Shown in pieces: positions 2,315 to 11,325 of a stretch of 13,597 nt of DNA. Made by a program: the position numbers and the translations under genes. Location of the stretch: positions 1-13,597 of the forward strand of contig USSR01000114.1 in the NCBI GenBank assembly GCA_900557355.1. Direction: 5' to 3'. Numbering within the stretch: the stretch's first letter is position 1; the number at the start of each line of letters is the position of its first letter. The DNA is from an uncultured Bacteroides sp. (lineage in GTDB: Bacteria > Bacteroidota > Bacteroidia > Bacteroidales > Bacteroidaceae). The notes under the pieces are model-generated. The model was not told the DNA's origin. It worked only from the letters and a program-made list of their open reading frames with translations, and did not search any database.

Positions 2315-3889
2315 ATGAAGCAGGGCATTTATGTTACAATATGGCTAATAAGTTTTCTTTTACTAAACTCATGTACACGACAGCACAATCACAATATACT
2401 GTTAGTACAAGCAGATTCGTTAATGGAAGAATATCCAGACAGTGCATTGCATATTCTGGAAAGCATAGAATCTCAACAACTGACAGTACACGCGGATCGC
2501 GCTTACTATGCTCTGCTACTGACACAAGCCAGAGACAAAAACTACATTGTACAAACAGATGATTCACTGATACGGACGGCTGTGCAGTATTATGATTCTA
2601 TTGGAGATGTACAGATGCAGGCGAAAGCGTATTACCATTGGGGAGGAGTTTTAAGGGATCAAAGGAACTATTCTCATGCACTAAACCTATATGTAAATGC
2701 AAGCTATTATGCTAAGAACAGTGAAAGGTCAAAACTATTATCATTGATATATAATAATATTGGCAACATTTACTATCAAGAAAACCATTATAACAATGCG
2801 GATTCCATATATCAGTTGATGCAGCAGCAAGCGACCTTGCAGAAAGACACAATCAACTTGGTTGAAGCCTTATCCAAACGCGGAAGTATAAATATAGAAA
2901 AAGGAAAAGCACGCTTGGCCGTATCCACATCATTACTATTACAAGCCTCAGAACTTACAAAATACTTTCCCAACAATATGCTGAAAGCCAATATTGCATC
3001 TTCCTTAAGTGCTTTGTATAGTAGAATGCAGAAAGGTAAAGAGGCTATAAAATACGCCAAAGAAAATTTCACCCACTTAACTGACACTACATTATATGCC
3101 AAAGGATATCTTCTATTAGGAGACGCCTACTATAAAGCCCAACTATATGATTCTGCCCGGTTCTATTTCAATAAAGCCTTGCATACCCAAGAATACACCA
3201 CCAAAGCCAGTGCTTATATGCGCCTTGCTGATATTGCAAAAAAGTCAAATAAATTAGAAGAATCACTGGAATTGGAAAGGCTTTACTCCTCCTATCAAGA
3301 TAGTGCACACAATCAGAATCTCTATATATTGTCGACAAATGCGTTTTATCCTCCTACTCCACCCCAATATAAATCTGATTTTCCCGTAAAAAGATGGATA
3401 TTATATATCAGTATAGGCATACTTATAGTAGGGAGCTACCTATTTATAAGACAATATAAATGCAAGAAAGTATCATCAGAAAAAGATAGTATAAGAACAA
3501 TGGAAATAGATATAGAAAAAGTAAAAGGTCAATTACAGGAAACTGCTTTTTATAAGAAAGCACAAAGCATATTGAATCATCAAAATGATATTAATGCAAA
3601 GGCAACAGAAAAACCGGAATTAACAAACGATGACCAAAAGTCATTAATAAAGGAGATTAATTGTTTGATTCCCGAATATACTTCACACCTGAAAAAGAAC
3701 TTTCCATTACTGACCGATAAAGACATTTTCTTTTGTTGCATTCACTTGTCAGGCTTTTCCATACAGGAACTTGGAGTCATTTTGAGCAGAACCCCTAATA
3801 GCATATATAAAAGACGGAGTAGCATTCTTGAAAAGAAAATGCAACTTGACAAAAATGATAATTTCATCAAAGCTATCACTTCTATCTGA
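2315..3889 (+). CDS. Membrane-anchored TPR regulator with C-terminal HTH
   Basis: With the ATG at 2315 the protein has 524 residues. It begins with a lipoprotein-like signal (hydrophobic residues 5-17, LLNSC with C20). Residues about 30-335 are helical, tyrosine- and alanine-rich TPR-type repeats, e.g. AKAYYHWGGVLRDQRNYSHA and YLLLGDAYYKAQLYDSARFY. One membrane helix spans about 361-378 and is followed by a basic, coiled-coil-like stretch. The C-terminal 60 residues (LTDKDIFFCCIHLSGFS, then IQELGVILSRTPNSIYKRR) look like a LuxR/sigma-4-type helix-turn-helix that Bacteroidetes TPR regulators carry. Topology therefore suggests an external TPR sensor and a cytoplasmic DNA-binding end. It lies between the two DUF3244/VKOR modules, each with its own promoter region, and is their most likely regulator. 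The target sites are inferred, not proven. Confidence 0.85.
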   Translation: MKQGIYVTIWLISFLLLNSCTRQHNHNILLVQADSLMEEYPDSALHILESIESQQLTVHADRAYYALLLTQARDKNYIVQTDDSLIRTAVQYYDSIGDVQMQAKAYYHWGGVLRDQRNYSHALNLYVNASYYAKNSERSKLLSLIYNNIGNIYYQENHYNNADSIYQLMQQQATLQKDTINLVEALSKRGSINIEKGKARLAVSTSLLLQASELTKYFPNNMLKANIASSLSALYSRMQKGKEAIKYAKENFTHLTDTTLYAKGYLLLGDAYYKAQLYDSARFYFNKALHTQEYTTKASAYMRLADIAKKSNKLEESLELERLYSSYQDSAHNQNLYILSTNAFYPPTPPQYKSDFPVKRWILYISIGILIVGSYLFIRQYKCKKVSSEKDSIRTMEIDIEKVKGQLQETAFYKKAQSILNHQNDINAKATEKPELTNDDQKSLIKEINCLIPEYTSHLKKNFPLLTDKDIFFCCIHLSGFSIQELGVILSRTPNSIYKRRSSILEKKMQLDKNDNFIKAITSI

Positions 3890-4022: not shown

Positions 4023-4412
4023 ATGAAAACACTTTTGATCATATTAATCACTGCATTTATTAGTGTTTGCTCCATTCAAGCACAGGAAAAAGGAAGTATG
4101 GTGGAATATAACAATACAGAAAGAGAAATTCCACTAAAGAATTTACAACCGAACAAACCTATAAGTAGAAGTCTTATTCCACAAATTGCGTATGCTTACC
4201 TATACAATAAGGTAGTAACCGTATCTTTTGAAGAAGCGATGCTAACCGTCACTATCAAGATTATTAAAGAAGCTACTGGTGAAATTGTTTATTCGCAAGA
4301 GTACATGAATCCAACGGTAATCTCTGTCGATCTAACAGGGCAGGATTCAGAAACATACTCTATAGAAGTTGTTTCAGATACTATTTCTTTAGAAGGCGAA
4401 TTTATGCTTTAA
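4023..4412 (+). CDS. Exported DUF3244-family small protein (copy 2)
   Basis: This 129-residue protein is a diverged paralogue of the one at 96-491. It has a signal peptide (MKTLLIILITAF, cleavage likely after IQA near residue 20). The mature chain repeats the family landmarks in the same order: TEREIPL, SRSL, a VVTVSF strand, TGEIVYSQEY, and a final strand pair SIEVVSDTISLEGEFML. There are no cysteines in the mature part, so it is not an obvious disulfide substrate. It lies 19 bp upstream of the VKOR-type gene at 4432, with its own promoter and repeat element upstream. Function is unknown; keeping a separate DUF3244 copy with each VKOR copy suggests the two products work together. Confidence 0.85.
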   Translation: MKTLLIILITAFISVCSIQAQEKGSMVEYNNTEREIPLKNLQPNKPISRSLIPQIAYAYLYNKVVTVSFEEAMLTVTIKIIKEATGEIVYSQEYMNPTVISVDLTGQDSETYSIEVVSDTISLEGEFML

Positions 4413-4431: not shown

Positions 4432-5958
4432 ATGTCAGGAGTTGATAACACTAGTGAAGTGTTCTATCACTATTTACGCGCATTACATGTAAAAGTGAGT
4501 AAGATGACCGTACACCGTTTGCTCGACAATCCGTTGGGCAACAGTATGCGAGGCATCAGTGACGCGCTGGACTCACTCCACATCAACAATGCGGTATATC
4601 AACTTCCAACAGAGTATTTCGATAAGTTAGAAAGTCCATTTATCGCTGTAACCAGTGATAATGATTCTCCTTTTTGCTTGGTTGAGGAGATCGAAGAAGC
4701 ATATATCACTATTACTATACCTCATTACCAACACATGAGAGTAAGCAAACAACAATTCTTACAAAAGTGGACAGGTGGTGTATTAGTCAGCGAAGTAACA
4801 GAGAGAACCAGTCAGGAAAAGAACTGTTGGCTGAAAAATGCAGTCGACTGGATTCAGCGATATCAACTACTATTAGCTGCCACCGCTACTATCCTGCTTA
4901 TATTGTGTAGTGCAAGTAGTAGCTACTCAACGGGAATGGTAGTCTACTTATTTACGTTATGTATAGGAATTCTCGTATCTTCCGCGATTCTCTATAAAGA
5001 AACTGTCAATAGTAAGTTCTTGCACCACTTCTGCCACATAGGCAAAGTTATTGATTGCAATGAAGTATTACATTCTAAAGGTTCACATATTATAGGGATA
5101 GGATTAGGAGAATTATCATTATTCTACTTCAGCACTTTATTGCTATTTACCCTTATCCGCCCATACGACTTTTACTACATCAGTTTAATATGTAATATTA
5201 CCGCAATAGGATTTACTATCTTCTCCGTAATCTATCAGATCTTTATAATCCGTAAAGGATGCATGCTCTGTATGGTTATAAACTTGATAGTATGGAGTAA
5301 CTGCCTTATTTTATATTTAATAAAAGATCAATATAATCAGGTACTTTCTATACAAACAGTATTTCTCATTATTACTATAAGCTGCATTTATTTAATAATT
5401 TGGATACAACTAAAGAAATTGCTGAGCTATAATGAAGAAAGAAAGCAGCTCAAGACTCATTTCTCAGGCTTACTAAGCCCTCAAATATTTCAAGCCATTT
5501 TAGCCCAAGAGCCCCAAATTAGAGAAATGCCGAAACATGACATTACTTTACACAATGATGTAACAGGTGAGAATCAATTACTATTTGTCACTAACCCTAA
5601 TTGCAAGAACTGCGCAAAGACACTTTTACAAGTTCAAAAAATTGCTGATGAACAGCCTATATCTTTAGTGCTATTGACTTTCCCGGGAGATGACACGGGG
5701 AAACAAGTTGCACTAATAATAATCTCAATCTATCTTACAGAAGGTTGGAAAAAGGCCATGGATTCATTATTAAAATGGCACAAAAACCACCACATAGAAA
5801 ACCCTAATCGTATAACGAATAAATCGAAGGAAATATGGAAACAACAACAGTTATATTGCTTACAACAACAAATAAATGAAACGCCCACTATAATTGCAAA
5901 TAAACATTACTTACCATACATATATCAGATAGAAAATCTAAAGTATGTATTAACATAA
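4432..5958 (+). CDS. C39-like / VKOR / thioredoxin fusion membrane protein (copy 2)
   Basis: This 508-residue paralogue of the 531-2081 product has the same three-part layout. Residues 1-121 form a degenerate C39-like domain (LLDNPLGNSMRGISDALDSL, PFI, FLQKWTGGVLVSE) without a recognisable catalytic triad. The VKOR-like membrane part carries loop cysteines C201 and C209 and the pair C277-x-x-C280 (CMLC). The C-terminal thioredoxin-like domain has CKNC (C391, C394) and a probable cis-proline in TPTI (P485). All redox cysteines are kept, so both copies should be active. AAAGGG at 4421-4426, just before the ATG, is purine-rich. It is the copy nearest the cysteine-rich peptide gene (74 bp to the ATG at 6033) and the likeliest to serve it. 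Confidence 0.87.
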   Translation: MSGVDNTSEVFYHYLRALHVKVSKMTVHRLLDNPLGNSMRGISDALDSLHINNAVYQLPTEYFDKLESPFIAVTSDNDSPFCLVEEIEEAYITITIPHYQHMRVSKQQFLQKWTGGVLVSEVTERTSQEKNCWLKNAVDWIQRYQLLLAATATILLILCSASSSYSTGMVVYLFTLCIGILVSSAILYKETVNSKFLHHFCHIGKVIDCNEVLHSKGSHIIGIGLGELSLFYFSTLLLFTLIRPYDFYYISLICNITAIGFTIFSVIYQIFIIRKGCMLCMVINLIVWSNCLILYLIKDQYNQVLSIQTVFLIITISCIYLIIWIQLKKLLSYNEERKQLKTHFSGLLSPQIFQAILAQEPQIREMPKHDITLHNDVTGENQLLFVTNPNCKNCAKTLLQVQKIADEQPISLVLLTFPGDDTGKQVALIIISIYLTEGWKKAMDSLLKWHKNHHIENPNRITNKSKEIWKQQQLYCLQQQINETPTIIANKHYLPYIYQIENLKYVLT

Positions 5959-5961
5959 AGA

Positions 5962-5982
5962 TATTGTTCTCGAGACACAATA
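5962..5982 (+). repeat. 21-bp dyad between VKOR copy 2 and the peptide gene
   Basis: TATTGT (5962-5967) and ACAATA (5977-5982) are perfect reverse complements around the palindrome TCTCGAGA (5968-5975), with one unpaired C at 5976. It could be a small hairpin or an operator. No T-run follows, so it is not a standard terminator. No convincing TAnnTTTG promoter was found between it and the peptide gene, which suggests the peptide is read from the upstream transcript. Confidence 0.45.
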
Positions 5983-6032
5983 GCCGATAAGAGTGACGGT
6001 TGCAAAATATCACTCAAGTTATTTCACTTAAA

Positions 6033-6242
6033 ATGCTAAATGATATGAAAGAAGAATTTCTAAAATTTCAATTACGCAAAGTGGCTATGAATGGACTCCG
6101 AGGAGGAGGAGCCGGACATGTAGAAAACTGTCATTGCGCAGGTGGTTCAACATTTACCATAATAGTAAATGAGACAGTAAATGTTGCAAATGTAATGGCC
6201 AAAAGATGTAATGGCGGCGACTGGGCTTGTAGCAAGCAGTAG
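6033..6242 (+). CDS. Double-glycine leader peptide precursor with four-cysteine core
   Basis: From ATG 6033 the product has 69 residues; from ATG 6045, 65; a TTG at 6000 would add 11 residues and is less likely. The N-terminal part KEEFLKFQLRKVAMNGLRGG has the form of a Bacteroidales Gly-Gly leader (amphipathic, hydrophobic residues before GG), so a C39 protease should cut after the GG. A third G follows, leaving the exact site open. The predicted core of about 44 residues is glycine- and asparagine-rich with cysteines in CHC, RC and WAC, a central hydrophobic stretch FTIIVNETVNVANVM and an end of ACSKQ. Four cysteines could form two disulfides. It sits between a VKOR/thioredoxin gene and the C39 ABC exporter. 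It is probably a bacteriocin-like or signalling peptide; activity is inferred. It resembles no peptide I can name. Confidence 0.75.
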   Translation: MLNDMKEEFLKFQLRKVAMNGLRGGGAGHVENCHCAGGSTFTIIVNETVNVANVMAKRCNGGDWACSKQ

Positions 6243-6264
6243 ACGATCCTAAGTAAAAACTCTT

Positions 6265-6354
6265 AAAGAGAGTGTGCCAAAAGTTACACAGTATGTAGAT
6301 AAACAATTATTTGTTTGTGATATACTAAATAACTTCTGGCACATCCCCCTTTTT
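6265..6354 (+). terminator. Long imperfect hairpin with T-run between peptide and export genes
   Basis: GTGTGCCAAAAGTTA (6272-6286) pairs with TAACTTCTGGCACAT (6330-6344), with one mismatch and one G-T pair. Inside, AGTAT/ATACT (6290-6294 with 6322-6326) and AAACAA/TTGTTT (6301-6306 with 6311-6316) extend the fold. Five C and five T (6345-6354) follow. A partial terminator here would let the peptide be made in excess over the transporter, as in many bacteriocin operons. The arms could equally be the remains of a small inverted-repeat element; a decayed extension (AAAGAGAG against CCCCCTTT) surrounds them. The hairpin also makes the GTG at 6274 an unlikely start for the next gene. Confidence 0.5.
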
Positions 6355-6366
6355 AAACAGATAATT

Positions 6367-7809
6367 ATGAAATACAAACTCTTCTCTCTTTTTTTCATGC
6401 TCTTATTACCAATAAGTGGTCATGCGCAAAACGCAACTATTCTATTTTCGACAGAACAAGATTGCGAAATTTCTATCTATGAGCCTATAGATGGAGGATA
6501 CAATAATCAACTACCAACAACAATACTTAAAGTTACAACAAATAAGCCATGTATTTATAGTACAGACATCGTCTCATTTAATTTTATATATTGCCAATTC
6601 TCACAAGGAACGAAATGTGAGGTTATTCTTTTTCCATCTGACTCTTTAAAGATACACATCAATAATAAACAAATAACATTTGAAGGAAGCAATCAAGATG
6701 GATTAGAATACTTACAGGACAAATTCACCAACGCCTCCCATTATGACCTCTATATGGGACCAATGGAAGAACTAATAAACGAATATGTTGGGCAAAAAAG
6801 AGAATTCAACACGATTATACCGGAAATACAGAAGAATATCATTCTTCCGACAATGAAAACCATAAACGAAATACCACTAAGCACAACCACGTCTCAGGAC
6901 TTTATCGATAAATTAGGAAAAGAAATTCTACTACAATACAACAGCTATCTAATTTTGCTCCTAAGAAGTATATTAGAGATAGAAGATTATAAAGTCACTG
7001 CTATTAAAGATAGTACAGAAATAGTCAATCAAATAGATAATCTATTTAAAACCACTGCACTACTTAGCCGGGAAACATTAAAATATGATTATGATTTATT
7101 CGTCTCCCAATATCTGGTGTTCTACTACGGGGAAGAAGCACCAGAAGAATGTGAGGAAAACATATTCGGACCTTATAGAAATATTTTATATGCACCTATA
7201 GATATGCATCCTGTTTTATTGGGGAAAGCATATCTCCGCCAATTGGAACGCAACACGCCAGTAATGAACCTTCCTAAAGTCCGAAAATATTTCAATGAGA
7301 AATTCCCTGATAGTCAATATACCGCTATTATTAATGATAAAAGCCGAAATGAAGAAGATTCAAAAGACTTCTTTTGCTCGTACATCAAACAGAACATAGA
7401 TTCCTTATCACAACTCAGAACTATATCGGAGCTTAAAAACAAATATATATTCATTGATTTATGGGCAAGTTGGTGTATGCCATGTAGACATGAATTCAAG
7501 TATAAAAAAGAGTTGAATGAACTACTAAGTACTTATAAAGACATATCTGTAGTATATATATCTATCGATAGTTCCACACAAAAAGACAGTTGGCAACAAT
7601 GCATCAATAATTACAAATTAAGCGGCTTTCACTTACTGGCAGCCTCCGAATTACAAAAGAGTATTCAGAAACAAATATATGGAAGTGATGAATTCACAAT
7701 ACCCCGATACATATTGCTTAACTCAGATGGTAAAATTCTGCATAAGAATTTACCACGTCCCAGCCATATTTCAGATTTAAAAGAAGTATTAGATAAGATA
7801 ATGCAATGA
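6367..7809 (+). CDS. Exported TlpA-like thioredoxin-family protein
   Basis: ATG 6367 gives 480 residues and puts a clean signal peptide at the start (MKYKLFSLFFMLLLPISGHA, cleavage near Q21); the in-frame GTG at 6274 would bury it behind 31 residues. Residues about 23-125 are beta-rich with PSDSLKIHINNKQITFEGSN, similar to the N-terminal domain (DUF4369-like) of Bacteroidetes TlpA proteins. About 130-350 are mostly helical and unassigned. The C-terminal domain has the active site W369-C-M-P-C373, a preceding DLWAS strand, and a cis-proline in IPRY (P446). It should act on thiols in the periplasm, as a reductase or isomerase, perhaps correcting disulfides in the neighbouring peptide. Its TGA overlaps the ATG of the ABC exporter by the ATGA arrangement, so the two are translationally coupled. 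Confidence 0.85.
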   Translation: MKYKLFSLFFMLLLPISGHAQNATILFSTEQDCEISIYEPIDGGYNNQLPTTILKVTTNKPCIYSTDIVSFNFIYCQFSQGTKCEVILFPSDSLKIHINNKQITFEGSNQDGLEYLQDKFTNASHYDLYMGPMEELINEYVGQKREFNTIIPEIQKNIILPTMKTINEIPLSTTTSQDFIDKLGKEILLQYNSYLILLLRSILEIEDYKVTAIKDSTEIVNQIDNLFKTTALLSRETLKYDYDLFVSQYLVFYYGEEAPEECEENIFGPYRNILYAPIDMHPVLLGKAYLRQLERNTPVMNLPKVRKYFNEKFPDSQYTAIINDKSRNEEDSKDFFCSYIKQNIDSLSQLRTISELKNKYIFIDLWASWCMPCRHEFKYKKELNELLSTYKDISVVYISIDSSTQKDSWQQCINNYKLSGFHLLAASELQKSIQKQIYGSDEFTIPRYILLNSDGKILHKNLPRPSHISDLKEVLDKIMQ

Positions 7810-9992
7810 CATTTGTTCCTTACTATCCTCAGCATGACGCCATGGACTGCGGCCCCACCTGCCTCCGCATGGTAGCCGCCTTCTATGGCAAACGTTATTC
7901 GTTGGAAGGGTTAAGGGAAAAGTCATTCATCACCCGTGAAGGGGTATCCATGCTTGGTATCAGCGAAGCGGCAGAAAAGATTGGTTTTCGCAGCATTTGC
8001 GTACAAGTGGGTTATGAAAAGCTACAGGAAGCTCCTTTACCCTGCATCATACATTGGAACCAGCAGCACTTTGTCGTAGTATATAAGCTCAACGACAAGC
8101 ATGTTTGGGTGGCCGACCCCGGTGCAGGAAAGCTAAAATACACCAAAGAAGAATTTTGTAATTGCTGGCTGAGTTCCCGAAAGAACGAAGAAGACACAGG
8201 TGTGGCGTTGTTGCTGGAGCCCACACCCGAATTTTATACAATAGAGGACGAGGGAGACGAAGTGAATCGCAAAGGCTTTAGCTTCCTCTACTCCTATCTC
8301 CGCCCGTACCGGGGGTTGGTGGGGCAACTGCTTTTAGGTCTGCTACTGGGCAGTATGATACAGCTCATGTTACCCTTCCTCACACAATCGGTAGTAGACT
8401 TCGGCATCAACAACCAGAATCTCGGTTTTATCTATCTGGTGCTGATTGCCCAGTTGATGCTGTCTTTCAGCAGCAGTGCCGTAGATTTCATACGGGGCTG
8501 GATATTGCTACATCTGGGCACACGCATCAACATCGCCCTCATATCAGACTTCCTTATCAAGCTAATGAAGATGCCTATCAGCTACTTCGACAGCAAAATG
8601 ACAGGAGACATCCTGCAACGCATCAACGACCACAAGCGCATACAGGATTTCCTGACGGGAAGTAGCCTTAGCGTTATCTTTTCCGTATTCAATATTATCA
8701 TCTTCGGCATTGTACTGCTGGTGTACAGTGGCATGATATTCCTTATCTTCATGGGCGGAAGTGCCCTATACGTGGCATACGTCTGGCTATTCATGAAGAA
8801 GCGCGCCGAACTGGATCACAAGCGTTTTGCCCAGCAGAGTGCCAATCAAAGTACGGTAGTGCAATTAGTGAACGGCATGCAGGAGATTAAACTCAGTGCC
8901 TGCGAACAACAGAAGCGCTGGGAATGGGAGCGAATACAAGCGAAGCTATTCAAAGTAAACATCAAAAGCCTTGCCCTGCGACAGTATCAGGATTCGGGAG
9001 CGGTGCTGATTAATCAAAGCAAGAACTTGCTGATTACCGCACTCGTAGCGAGCTTGGTAGTGAAAGGGGAAATGACACTGGGTATGATGCTGTCCGTGCA
9101 ATACATCATCGGACAGTTGAACAGTCCGGTAAATGAGCTCATCGCTTTTGCCCGCGATATGCAGGACGCACGGCTCAGCATGGACCGCCTCAGCGAAGTG
9201 CGCGACAAACCGGATGAGGAAGACCCCACCCGTGAATTGCTGCGGGAAATACCGGAAGGGAAAGAAATAAGACTCCAAAACCTTAACTTCAAATATGATC
9301 CGCTAAGCGAATACCCGACGCTGGACGACATCAACCTAGTGATTCCGCCGGGCATGCAAACGGCCATCGTGGGTATGAGCGGAAGCGGAAAGACAACACT
9401 CGTTAAACTACTGTTAGGATTCTACCCACCCGCAAGCGGCGATATCTTCATCGGGGATACTCCACTGGGAAGTTACAGTATTCGCGAGTGGCGCAAGCGG
9501 TGCGGCGTAGTAATGCAGGATGGTTTCATCTTCTCCGACAGTATTGCCGGTAACATTGCACCCGGAGTAGAGCATATCGACAAGAAACGTCTGCGCCATG
9601 CTGCTGAAGTGGCAAATATACACGATTTCATAGAAGAATTGCCTTTAGCATACAATACTAAGATAGGACAGGAAGGGCACGGATTAAGTCAGGGACAGAA
9701 ACAACGCATACTCATAGCCCGCGCCGTGTACAAAGACCCGGAATTCATCTTCTTCGACGAAGCAACCAATGCACTGGATGCCAACAACGAACGCACTATC
9801 ATGAACAACCTGCAAACCTTCTTCAAAGGCAGGACATCCGTAGTGGTAGCCCACCGGTTGAGCACCGTAAGGAATGCGGAACAAATCATCGTCATAGAAC
9901 AGGGCAGGATAGCAGAGACCGGAACGCATGAAGCGCTGATTGCTCTGGAAGGAAGATATTACAAGCTGGTGAAGAACCAATTGGAACTTTAA
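7806..9992 (+). CDS. C39-peptidase ABC exporter (leader-cutting peptide transporter)
   Basis: This 728-residue protein is a full-length peptidase-containing ABC transporter. Residues 1-140 are a C39 domain with the catalytic Cys in DCGPTC (C15), His in QQHFVVVY (H88) and Asp in VADPG (D104), so it should be an active Gly-Gly leader protease. Residues about 165-445 hold the membrane helices. The ATPase has Walker A GMSGSGKTT (523-531), Q-loop Q571, signature LSQGQ (627-631), Walker B FIFFDEATNALD (about 648-659) and the H-loop histidine in VAHRLSTV (H683). Family members cut the leader of a substrate peptide and pump the core across the inner membrane. It overlaps the TlpA gene and is followed by the HlyD adaptor. 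Its DNA is visibly richer in G+C than the genes just upstream. The likely substrate is the 6033 peptide. Confidence 0.95.
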   Translation: MTFVPYYPQHDAMDCGPTCLRMVAAFYGKRYSLEGLREKSFITREGVSMLGISEAAEKIGFRSICVQVGYEKLQEAPLPCIIHWNQQHFVVVYKLNDKHVWVADPGAGKLKYTKEEFCNCWLSSRKNEEDTGVALLLEPTPEFYTIEDEGDEVNRKGFSFLYSYLRPYRGLVGQLLLGLLLGSMIQLMLPFLTQSVVDFGINNQNLGFIYLVLIAQLMLSFSSSAVDFIRGWILLHLGTRINIALISDFLIKLMKMPISYFDSKMTGDILQRINDHKRIQDFLTGSSLSVIFSVFNIIIFGIVLLVYSGMIFLIFMGGSALYVAYVWLFMKKRAELDHKRFAQQSANQSTVVQLVNGMQEIKLSACEQQKRWEWERIQAKLFKVNIKSLALRQYQDSGAVLINQSKNLLITALVASLVVKGEMTLGMMLSVQYIIGQLNSPVNELIAFARDMQDARLSMDRLSEVRDKPDEEDPTRELLREIPEGKEIRLQNLNFKYDPLSEYPTLDDINLVIPPGMQTAIVGMSGSGKTTLVKLLLGFYPPASGDIFIGDTPLGSYSIREWRKRCGVVMQDGFIFSDSIAGNIAPGVEHIDKKRLRHAAEVANIHDFIEELPLAYNTKIGQEGHGLSQGQKQRILIARAVYKDPEFIFFDEATNALDANNERTIMNNLQTFFKGRTSVVVAHRLSTVRNAEQIIVIEQGRIAETGTHEALIALEGRYYKLVKNQLEL

Positions 9993-10026: not shown

Positions 10027-11325
10027 ATGAAGAAGAAAGAAGAAAAAGACATAGAATTAAGGTGTGAGGAGGTGCAGGAGATATTGACACGCCCGCCACA
10101 CGCATTAATCAGATGGGGAATAACAGCATTCTTCGGAGTGCTGGCATTGCTCTTCATCGGGGGCTGCTTCTTCAAATATCCGGATATCGTAAGTGCAGAA
10201 ATCACCATTACCACAGAGCATCCACCCGTATGGATCGTGGCAAGAGGAAGTGGAAAAATTCAGGAGGTATATCGAAAAGACCGTGAAACCATAAAAGCAG
10301 GAGATATCATAGCTGTACTGGAGAATCCTGCCATCACTGCCCATGTATTGGAACTGAAAGAAAGGATTACTTCTTTCATTCTGACGGATAGTTGTATCTG
10401 CCAAACCGTGTTTCCAGAGAAACCGGAACTCGGAAACATTCAGAATGCTTATGCCTCTTTCATCAAATGCTTGACAGATTATCGTAATTTTCTGTCGATA
10501 GACCTCTACGCCCAGAAAGAGCAGGCCGCCTGCAAAGAACTGCAAGAGTATCAGAAGTACATCCGGCATCTGAATAAACAAGCAGAACTTGATGAAGAAC
10601 AGGTACAGATAGCTTCCGCTACCCATAGCCGGGAAAAGAAACTCTTCGACAAAGGATTAATATCGAAAGCTGATTATGAAGAAGCACAACAAACCTATCT
10701 GAATCGCAGGCAAGGGAGAGAGCAACTAATGACTTCACTTTCATCTGCCAGAATACAAGAGGCGCAATTACAACAGAATATTGTAGAAATCCGTATGGAA
10801 CGTAATCGGGAAGCCAATACAATAAGCACTTCGTTAAAATCAGCCCTCAATGATTTACAGGTAAGCATCAGCGATTGGGAGTTGGGATATCTCTTTACCA
10901 GCCCTGCCAGTGGTATATTATCTTACAATAATATCTGGCAGAAGAACCAGAATGTCAATGCGGGAGATAAAGTGTTCTCTATTGTAGCCTCTACTCCCGG
11001 TGACATTATAGGAAAAATAAAATTACCCGTCAGCGGATCAGGCAAAGTATGCCCCGGACAAAGAGTGAATATCAGTGTGACAGGGTATCCATACATGGAA
11101 TTCGGCTTCCTCACCGGAGAAGTGCTGTCTGTTTCACTATTAGCAAGCGAGGACAATATGTACACTGTCACGGTAAGTCTGCCACAAAATTTATGCACCT
11201 CATATGGCAAGCAGTTGGACTTTAAAGGAGAACTTTCCGGCACAGCAGAGGTCATGACAGACGAACGGAGCGTAACTGCACGTCTACTCAGTCCGCTCCG
11301 CTATCTGTGGGAAAAATATCTATAA
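10027..11325 (+). CDS. HlyD-family periplasmic adaptor of the exporter
   Basis: This 432-residue protein has the layout of an HlyD-type membrane fusion protein: short cytoplasmic N-terminus, one membrane helix (about 29-48), a first biotinyl-lipoyl half (about 66-105, VWIVARGSGKIQEVYRKD, then IKAGDIIAVLENPA), a long coiled-coil hairpin (about 160-280) containing KKLFDKGLISKADYEEA, a second lipoyl half (about 289-321, TSPASGILSYN and NVNAGDKVFSIV) and beta domains to the end. It connects an inner-membrane ABC exporter to an outer-membrane channel. It follows the C39 ABC gene by 34 bp and is almost certainly its partner. No TolC-type outer-membrane gene is in the window, so the channel must be encoded elsewhere. 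It ends 8 bp from the stop of the convergent DUF418 gene. Confidence 0.93.
   Translation: MKKKEEKDIELRCEEVQEILTRPPHALIRWGITAFFGVLALLFIGGCFFKYPDIVSAEITITTEHPPVWIVARGSGKIQEVYRKDRETIKAGDIIAVLENPAITAHVLELKERITSFILTDSCICQTVFPEKPELGNIQNAYASFIKCLTDYRNFLSIDLYAQKEQAACKELQEYQKYIRHLNKQAELDEEQVQIASATHSREKKLFDKGLISKADYEEAQQTYLNRRQGREQLMTSLSSARIQEAQLQQNIVEIRMERNREANTISTSLKSALNDLQVSISDWELGYLFTSPASGILSYNNIWQKNQNVNAGDKVFSIVASTPGDIIGKIKLPVSGSGKVCPGQRVNISVTGYPYMEFGFLTGEVLSVSLLASEDNMYTVTVSLPQNLCTSYGKQLDFKGELSGTAEVMTDERSVTARLLSPLRYLWEKYL

Follow-up and report, generated by a model that had tools for sequence, protein, structure and literature searches.

A Gly-Gly-led four-cysteine peptide of Bacteroides and an apparently swappable cassette for its export and oxidation

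The small open reading frame (ORF) at positions 6033-6242 of the + strand of contig USSR01000114.1, from an uncultured, gut-type Bacteroides sp., most likely encodes, with a probability that we put at roughly 0.7, the precursor of a secreted peptide with disulfide bonds, which would act as a bacteriocin-like weapon against related Bacteroidales. The observations that bear on this reading are the conservation of the peptide, the linkage of its gene to those of export and redox proteins, the parity of the cysteine counts, the loss of catalytic residues from the peptidase-like domain of one partner, the covariation of another partner with the peptide, and the differences of the middle module between conserved flanks among related loci. 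That the peptide is the cargo of the exporter and carries two disulfides is, at the level of sequence, well supported; its antibacterial action is the further step that we infer. The cassette in the window (the entire stretch of 13,597 nucleotides that was analysed) appears to belong to a family of cassettes that can be swapped and that encode apparently undescribed antibacterial-type peptides.

The precursor and its genomic context

The following features of the window enter the argument:

96-491, + strand: DUF3244 protein, 5' of the orphan fusion
531-2081, + strand: second C39-like/VKOR/DsbA-like fusion, an orphan with no GG-leader peptide directly 3'
2315-3889, + strand: TPR protein, weakly BT3442-like, putative regulator of the cassette
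4023-4412, + strand: small DUF3244 protein, 5' of the fusion, as in many relatives
4432-5958, + strand: C39-like/VKOR/DsbA-like fusion, 508 aa, with Pfam VKOR and Peptidase_C39 matches
6033-6242, + strand: peptide precursor ORF, with a leader ending ...MNGLRGG, a putative cut, and then the core GAGHVENCHCAGGSTFTIIVNETVNVANVMAKRCNGGDWACSKQ
6045-6107, + strand: putative leader of 21 aa, MKEEFLKFQLRKVAMNGLRGG, with L, M and L at -12, -7 and -4 and GG at -2/-1
6108-6242, + strand: putative core peptide, 44 aa plus stop, with 4 Cys (codon starts 6129, 6135, 6207 and 6228)
6367-7809, + strand: TlpA-like thioredoxin (WCMPC) with an N-domain of about 320 aa, between the peptide and the exporter
7806-9992, + strand: C39 peptidase ABC exporter, Cys15/His88/Asp104 intact
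10027-11325, + strand: HlyD-type periplasmic adaptor, with Pfam/NCBIfam matches

An earlier note on this DNA had described a small ORF with a Gly-Gly leader and a core of about 44 residues with cysteines arranged as CHC, RC and WAC, next to a C39 ABC exporter and VKOR/thioredoxin genes. The ORF is as described, and the neighbours are the intact exporter and the two fusions of VKOR with a thioredoxin-fold domain; the TlpA-like and HlyD genes are additional members of the cassette that the note had not mentioned. Read from the ATG at 6045, the precursor consists of 65 aa (leader 21, core 44), and this ATG, rather than 6033, is probably the true start because the leader then has 21 aa, a length shared by 37 of the 47 sequences in the alignment. 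The other ten include five short gene calls at an internal Met and four leaders of 22 or 33 aa, and among these ten, P0002, which is near-identical to the window peptide, is the only one with the MLND extension. The gap to the stop codon of the fusion, 87 bp from 6045 and 75 bp from 6033, does not discriminate between the two starts.

Gly-Gly leaders conform to a consensus of hydrophobic residues at -4, -7 and -12 followed by a double glycine, and the window leader has hydrophobic residues at all three positions and the GG. The core is neutral, with a pI of 6.9. The AF2 model of the peptide (mean pLDDT 70.7; 72-85 for the core blocks) yields a predicted order of strand, strand, helix, strand in the core, and no fold is claimed for the peptide because a Foldseek search with this model retrieved no PDB fold at E ≤ 0.001. 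The four-cysteine pattern, which the earlier note could not place, is indeed unfamiliar: the peptide has no NCBIfam family at E ≤ 1 and, against Pfam, a sub-threshold fn1 fragment alone, so that no cut-off of either collection is reached, and it shows no detectable similarity to the one bacteroidetocin-like peptide of B. oleiciplenus, identified by locus description, with which it was compared (see below).

Conservation and selection

Four close relatives of the window peptide came from the first search; family-wide, 399 genomes searched with a five-row profile, for which the richer A3 and A4 were then substituted, contained three weak matches. With a 12-row profile that took in siblings from genomes, 46 related proteins were detected at E ≤ 1e-3 among 5.8 billion. 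Both glycines as well as Cys29 and Cys31 are kept in all 47 aligned sequences (the 46 relatives and the window peptide), Cys55 in 44 and Cys62 in 43, which is the outcome anticipated when a database search with the core was proposed; the five rows that do not contain the full four cysteines appear to have a truncation, a frameshift or an altered end. In the single pairwise comparison made, with the L060 peptide, dN is 0.26 and dS is 1.45 (dN/dS of about 0.18, NG86). These patterns indicate that the ORF is a real gene under selection. Viral contigs and plasmids that were searched contained no relatives, and therefore no link to mobile elements was found.

Recurrence and linkage of the cassette

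A scan of GTDB recovered 11 loci, all in Bacteroides records. The fusion is present at E ≤ 1e-20 in 31 of 158 Bacteroides genomes and, in Bacteroidota at large, in 17 of 344 genomes besides G001 at E ≤ 1e-15. VKOR is found in 37 of 157 Bacteroides genomes, with 66 matches that are almost all of the C39-like fusion type. The fetched stretches contain 66 ORFs with VKOR (one gene being split into two ORFs, and the L098 match not being recovered): the C39-like domain is present in 58 of these ORFs and the thioredoxin-fold domain in 60, and all three domains occur together in 54, each over 480 aa. A related ABC gene lies in the fetched stretch for 41 of the 66; the stretches of the remaining 25 do not include one, in some cases owing to contig ends.

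Searched alone against the 157 Bacteroides genomes, the peptide profile produced 20 matches in 16 genomes. The order-wide search of Bacteroidales yielded a match in one of 393 genomes at E ≤ 1e-4. The earlier note had suggested checking whether homologues always sit beside both VKOR and C39 ABC genes. With respect to VKOR, this expectation held: all nine strong matches (E ≤ 1.4e-15) lie beside a fusion, the VKOR match being no more than 3 kb away, and, regardless of strength, 19 of the 20 are within about 7 kb, the exception being a match in G450 with no listed VKOR match. The test is limited by the origin of the profile, whose seeds came from VKOR loci. With respect to the exporter, it held in part, given that a related ABC accompanies seven of the nine same-class peptides within the fetched loci (one of these ABCs being a 513-aa fragment and another cut by a contig end) but not the two at L061 and L062. 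The L157 locus, in the genome that the order-wide search picked up through its peptide, contains two CxC GG peptides (9078-9290 and 15121-15333), one on either side of a C39-like/VKOR fusion, with the ABC and HlyD genes several kb upstream.

A peptidase-like domain that is apparently dead, joined to a putative oxidase

All 35 exporters compared have the catalytic Cys, His and Asp. In the columns of the C39-like domain that align with these residues, 59 fusions have the Cys in none, the His in none and the Asp in 10, with gaps at the three columns in 5, 20 and 1 of the fusions, respectively. On this alignment, the C39-like domain of the fusion is dead as a peptidase, its catalytic residues having been lost. 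The six redox cysteines, by comparison, are kept in 55 or 56 of the 56 full-length fusions. The thioredoxin-fold region is C-terminal, after the C39-like and VKOR parts. In Foldseek, the AF2 model of the fusion (mean pLDDT 78.3) matches the PCAT1 and ComA peptidase domains, with TMt values of up to 0.77, as well as proteins of the DsbA type, ScsC and BdbD among them; the 50 matches listed include no VKOR structure, and a sequence search of the PDB with the fusion retrieved no relative.

An extra conserved hydrophobic segment precedes the VKOR core in the 4432-5958 protein and in the 56 full-length fusions, and, from the AF2 helices and the hydropathy profile together, six membrane spans appear likely. 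If all six cross the membrane, the C39-like domain would be outside, on the side of the DsbA-like domain, which fits poorly with binding of the leader in the cytoplasm. Fusions of VKOR with thioredoxins are known from cyanobacteria and other bacteria, where VKOR is followed by a thioredoxin-fold domain with a conserved CxxC; the Bacteroides proteins have the same order but differ in the dead C39-like domain at the N-terminus, the extra N-terminal hydrophobic segment and the linkage to peptide cassettes. Similarly, C39 ABC (PCAT) exporters with an HlyD adaptor serve class II-type microcins, and the window contains an intact C39-ABC and an HlyD; unlike the microcin exporters, it adds a dedicated C39-like/VKOR/DsbA fusion and a class-matched TlpA. 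Close homologues of the orphan fusion at 531-2081 lack an accompanying cassette at L006 and, in B. cellulosilyticus, at L005. In a literature search, with most subscription journals outside its reach, no relevant paper was found that ties VKOR to bacteriocins, C39 or Bacteroides disulfides.

Even numbers of cysteines near VKOR

Leader-like small ORFs that fit a fixed pattern within 6 kb of a VKOR gene comprise 56 distinct GG-leader cores on the VKOR strand, compared with five on the opposite strand, two of which (at L080) also resemble four-cysteine peptides. Even non-zero cysteine counts are found in 55 of the 56 cores (15 with two cysteines, 20 with four and 20 with six), related sequences among them not being independent; the lone core with one cysteine, at L081, is apparently damaged. 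A GG peptide with three cysteines lies by a broken fusion at L010, beyond the pattern of the scan. Among 20 control peptides of the TIGR04149 type located away from VKOR (from 30 loci of a longer list, less seven near VKOR and three unparsed, some of the 20 being near-identical), the count is even in 15 and odd in five, and therefore the evenness is stronger near VKOR, yet not exclusive to these loci.

TIGR04149 itself raises the possibility that the peptide is a radical-SAM-modified RiPP with thioethers in place of disulfides. Sibling leaders match this family weakly, some peptides of VKOR loci exceed its cut-off, and the style of the leader is shared; the window peptide, however, has no TIGR04149 match, and the locus encodes the oxidase fusion and TlpA instead of a radical SAM enzyme, no radical-SAM family being among the matches listed for the eleven window genes scanned (ten against Pfam and NCBIfam, with the best 25 of 196 NCBIfam matches for the ABC, and the DUF418 gene against Pfam alone). 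Such a modification is, accordingly in our estimate, highly improbable for the window peptide. Some of the peptides near VKOR fusions, namely those at L110, L114 and L122, fall under NCBIfam TIGR04149, which is labeled rSAM-modified, and for these loci the label may mislead.

The TlpA-like partner goes with the peptide

The TlpA-like protein starts with a segment that, by eye, is signal-like, and its C-terminal part resembles solved thiol-disulfide oxidoreductases. Of 36 peptides, 31 have, as the next gene on their strand, one that encodes a thioredoxin-like WCxxC motif; the other five have no adjoining TlpA-like gene, two of them being at contig ends. Similarity to the N-domain of the window protein ranges from 81 to 233 bits for the partners of CxC peptides (n=9, i.e. 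eight distinct proteins, both L055 peptides having one partner in common), compared with 0 to 84 bits for other partners (n=25, including four that are not TlpA-like at all), a difference with a Mann-Whitney p of 2.9e-6 for peptide classes that the analyst had assigned before the test. The three highest non-CxC scores adjoin L069, L082 and L075, and the L069 and L082 peptides have an early CxC. The L001 locus, of B. timonensis, separates the partner from the exporter: its exporter and fusion are 96% and 74% identical to those of the window at the amino acid level, but its peptide is of an unrelated two-cysteine type and the N-domain of its partner has no match to that of the window, and therefore the partner goes with the peptide and not with the exporter. 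The correspondence is not strictly one-to-one, in that L055 has two peptides and one TlpA, and L002 and L003 have TlpA and no peptide found by the scan. The L003 protein (5619-7073), with no CxC peptide in the scan, is 46% identical to the window TlpA-like protein and is perhaps the remnant of a lost module.

The location of this gene directly 3' of the peptide and the tracking of the peptide class by its N-domain are also compatible with a bacteriocin-like system in which the TlpA-like protein is the immunity factor that binds or reduces the cell's own peptide in the periplasm, TlpA/ResA proteins being reductases as a rule. We regard this role as unlikely: the bacteroidetocin oxidoreductase, encoded at the same position, conferred no protection (PMC6671954), which is an analogy from a different protein.

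Apparent exchange of modules between conserved flanks

Compared with the window at the nucleotide level, the L004 locus is 89% identical in the TPR gene, 89% in DUF3244, 94% in the ABC and 82% in the HlyD gene; its peptide and TlpA-like genes cannot be aligned to those of the window, and its fusion aligns over 8% only. At L001, the identity is 76% in the fusion, 88% in the ABC and 92% in the HlyD gene, and continues into the flanks (DUF418 gene 92%, PepSY-like gene 86%), with the TPR gene aligned over 20% only and, again, unalignable peptide and TlpA-like genes. In L005 of B. cellulosilyticus, the DUF418 gene comes next after the orphan fusion, the cassette being absent, and L052 keeps a 5% stub of HlyD. 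These are the patterns expected if a module that sets specificity is exchanged and lost.

The flanks also bear on the possibility that the peptide is no weapon but serves in signalling, as a pheromone or cue with disulfide bonds that the upstream TPR protein may sense. A TPR protein is encoded upstream in many of the close cassettes and possibly regulates the cassette, no immunity gene was recognised at the window cassette, and the core is neutral. This alternative nevertheless appears to us quite unlikely since the TPR gene is not exchanged along with the peptide (at L004, the conserved TPR gene accompanies an unrelated peptide), and the diversity of the cores and the loss of cassettes look more like the behaviour of competition genes.

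Comparison with bacteroidetocins

The closest parallel to a bacteriocin-like peptide of this organization is offered by the bacteroidetocins, which have been proposed as class IIf bacteriocins (PMC6671954) and target BamA (PMC8546649). In the first report, they are described as having leaders of 15-16 aa and cores of 42-53 aa with at least two cysteines (four in A and B), in loci with the order membrane protein, peptide, thiol oxidoreductase, ABC, and with no evident immunity gene; the thiol oxidoreductase gene is required for full toxin activity and gives no protection (PMC6671954). The window system resembles this description in the Bacteroidales host, the GG leader, the C39-type ABC, the thiol oxidoreductase 3' of the peptide, and the core of 44 aa with four cysteines, which is within the described ranges, but differs in the leader of 21 aa (or 25 if translated from 6033).

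A locus of B. oleiciplenus (L132, 5242-8968) encodes a four-cysteine peptide with a 15-aa leader, a 249-aa membrane protein, a ResA-like protein and a C39 ABC; it is called bacteroidetocin-like by its fit to the locus description of PMC6671954, and is the one such locus with which the window was compared. A phage-type integrase gene adjoins this locus. The window ABC is 25% identical to its ABC, the 249-aa membrane protein has no counterpart in the window (best tblastn E of 2.3) and no similarity to the VKOR fusion, and the 15-kb B. oleiciplenus stretch contains no VKOR or HlyD match. The idea that the five-TM protein of bacteroidetocin loci is VKOR-like was rejected on the dissimilarity of the B. 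oleiciplenus membrane protein to VKOR. Despite the similar gene order, the window peptide was also rejected as a bacteroidetocin, on the leader length and the membrane protein, with which the peptide and ABC comparisons agree. By the features tested, then, the window system would work like the bacteroidetocin system but is not one. The peptides described here appear to constitute a new family of disulfide peptides that are exported through Gly-Gly leaders and served by an oxidation module of their own, the comparison with bacteroidetocins being that with the one B. oleiciplenus locus.

A possible route from precursor to secreted peptide

Under the preferred reading of a bacteriocin-like secreted peptide, cleavage, cysteine pairing, secretion, killing and the role of each partner are what we infer, as follows. 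The C39 domain of the exporter would recognise the leader and cleave the precursor behind the double glycine, at the bond joining residues 21 and 22, and the ABC exporter would pass the 44-aa core through the inner membrane. On the periplasmic side, two disulfides would be made in the core by the DsbA-like domain, with the VKOR part of the fusion handing the electrons to quinone, and the TlpA-like partner, matched to the cysteine class, would reshuffle or proofread the bonds, after which HlyD and an outer-membrane channel would release the peptide. The dead C39-like domain might bring the precursor or the exporter together with the oxidase.

A more specific version of this scheme is a general system of guided oxidative folding, whereby the dead C39 domain, a relative of the protease domain in the exporter, is joined to a self-contained, quinone-driven VKOR/DsbA-like oxidase so that the peptides are oxidised as they leave the exporter, and the TlpA-like proteins are swappable, peptide-specific disulfide editors. 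We put it forward tentatively, as a conceivable mechanism with the odds somewhat against it, and the same applies to its evolutionary component, in which modules of peptide and editor are swapped between conserved flanks to change specificity.

Should the bacteriocin-like reading be correct, the machinery would be named for a sizeable and apparently unrecognised set of disulfide peptides of Bacteroidales, with 55 further distinct cores, and such peptides could be sought by a simple rule, namely, a GG leader near a C39-like/VKOR fusion. The peptides would then be candidate agents against gut Bacteroidales, with a specificity module that lends itself to testing.
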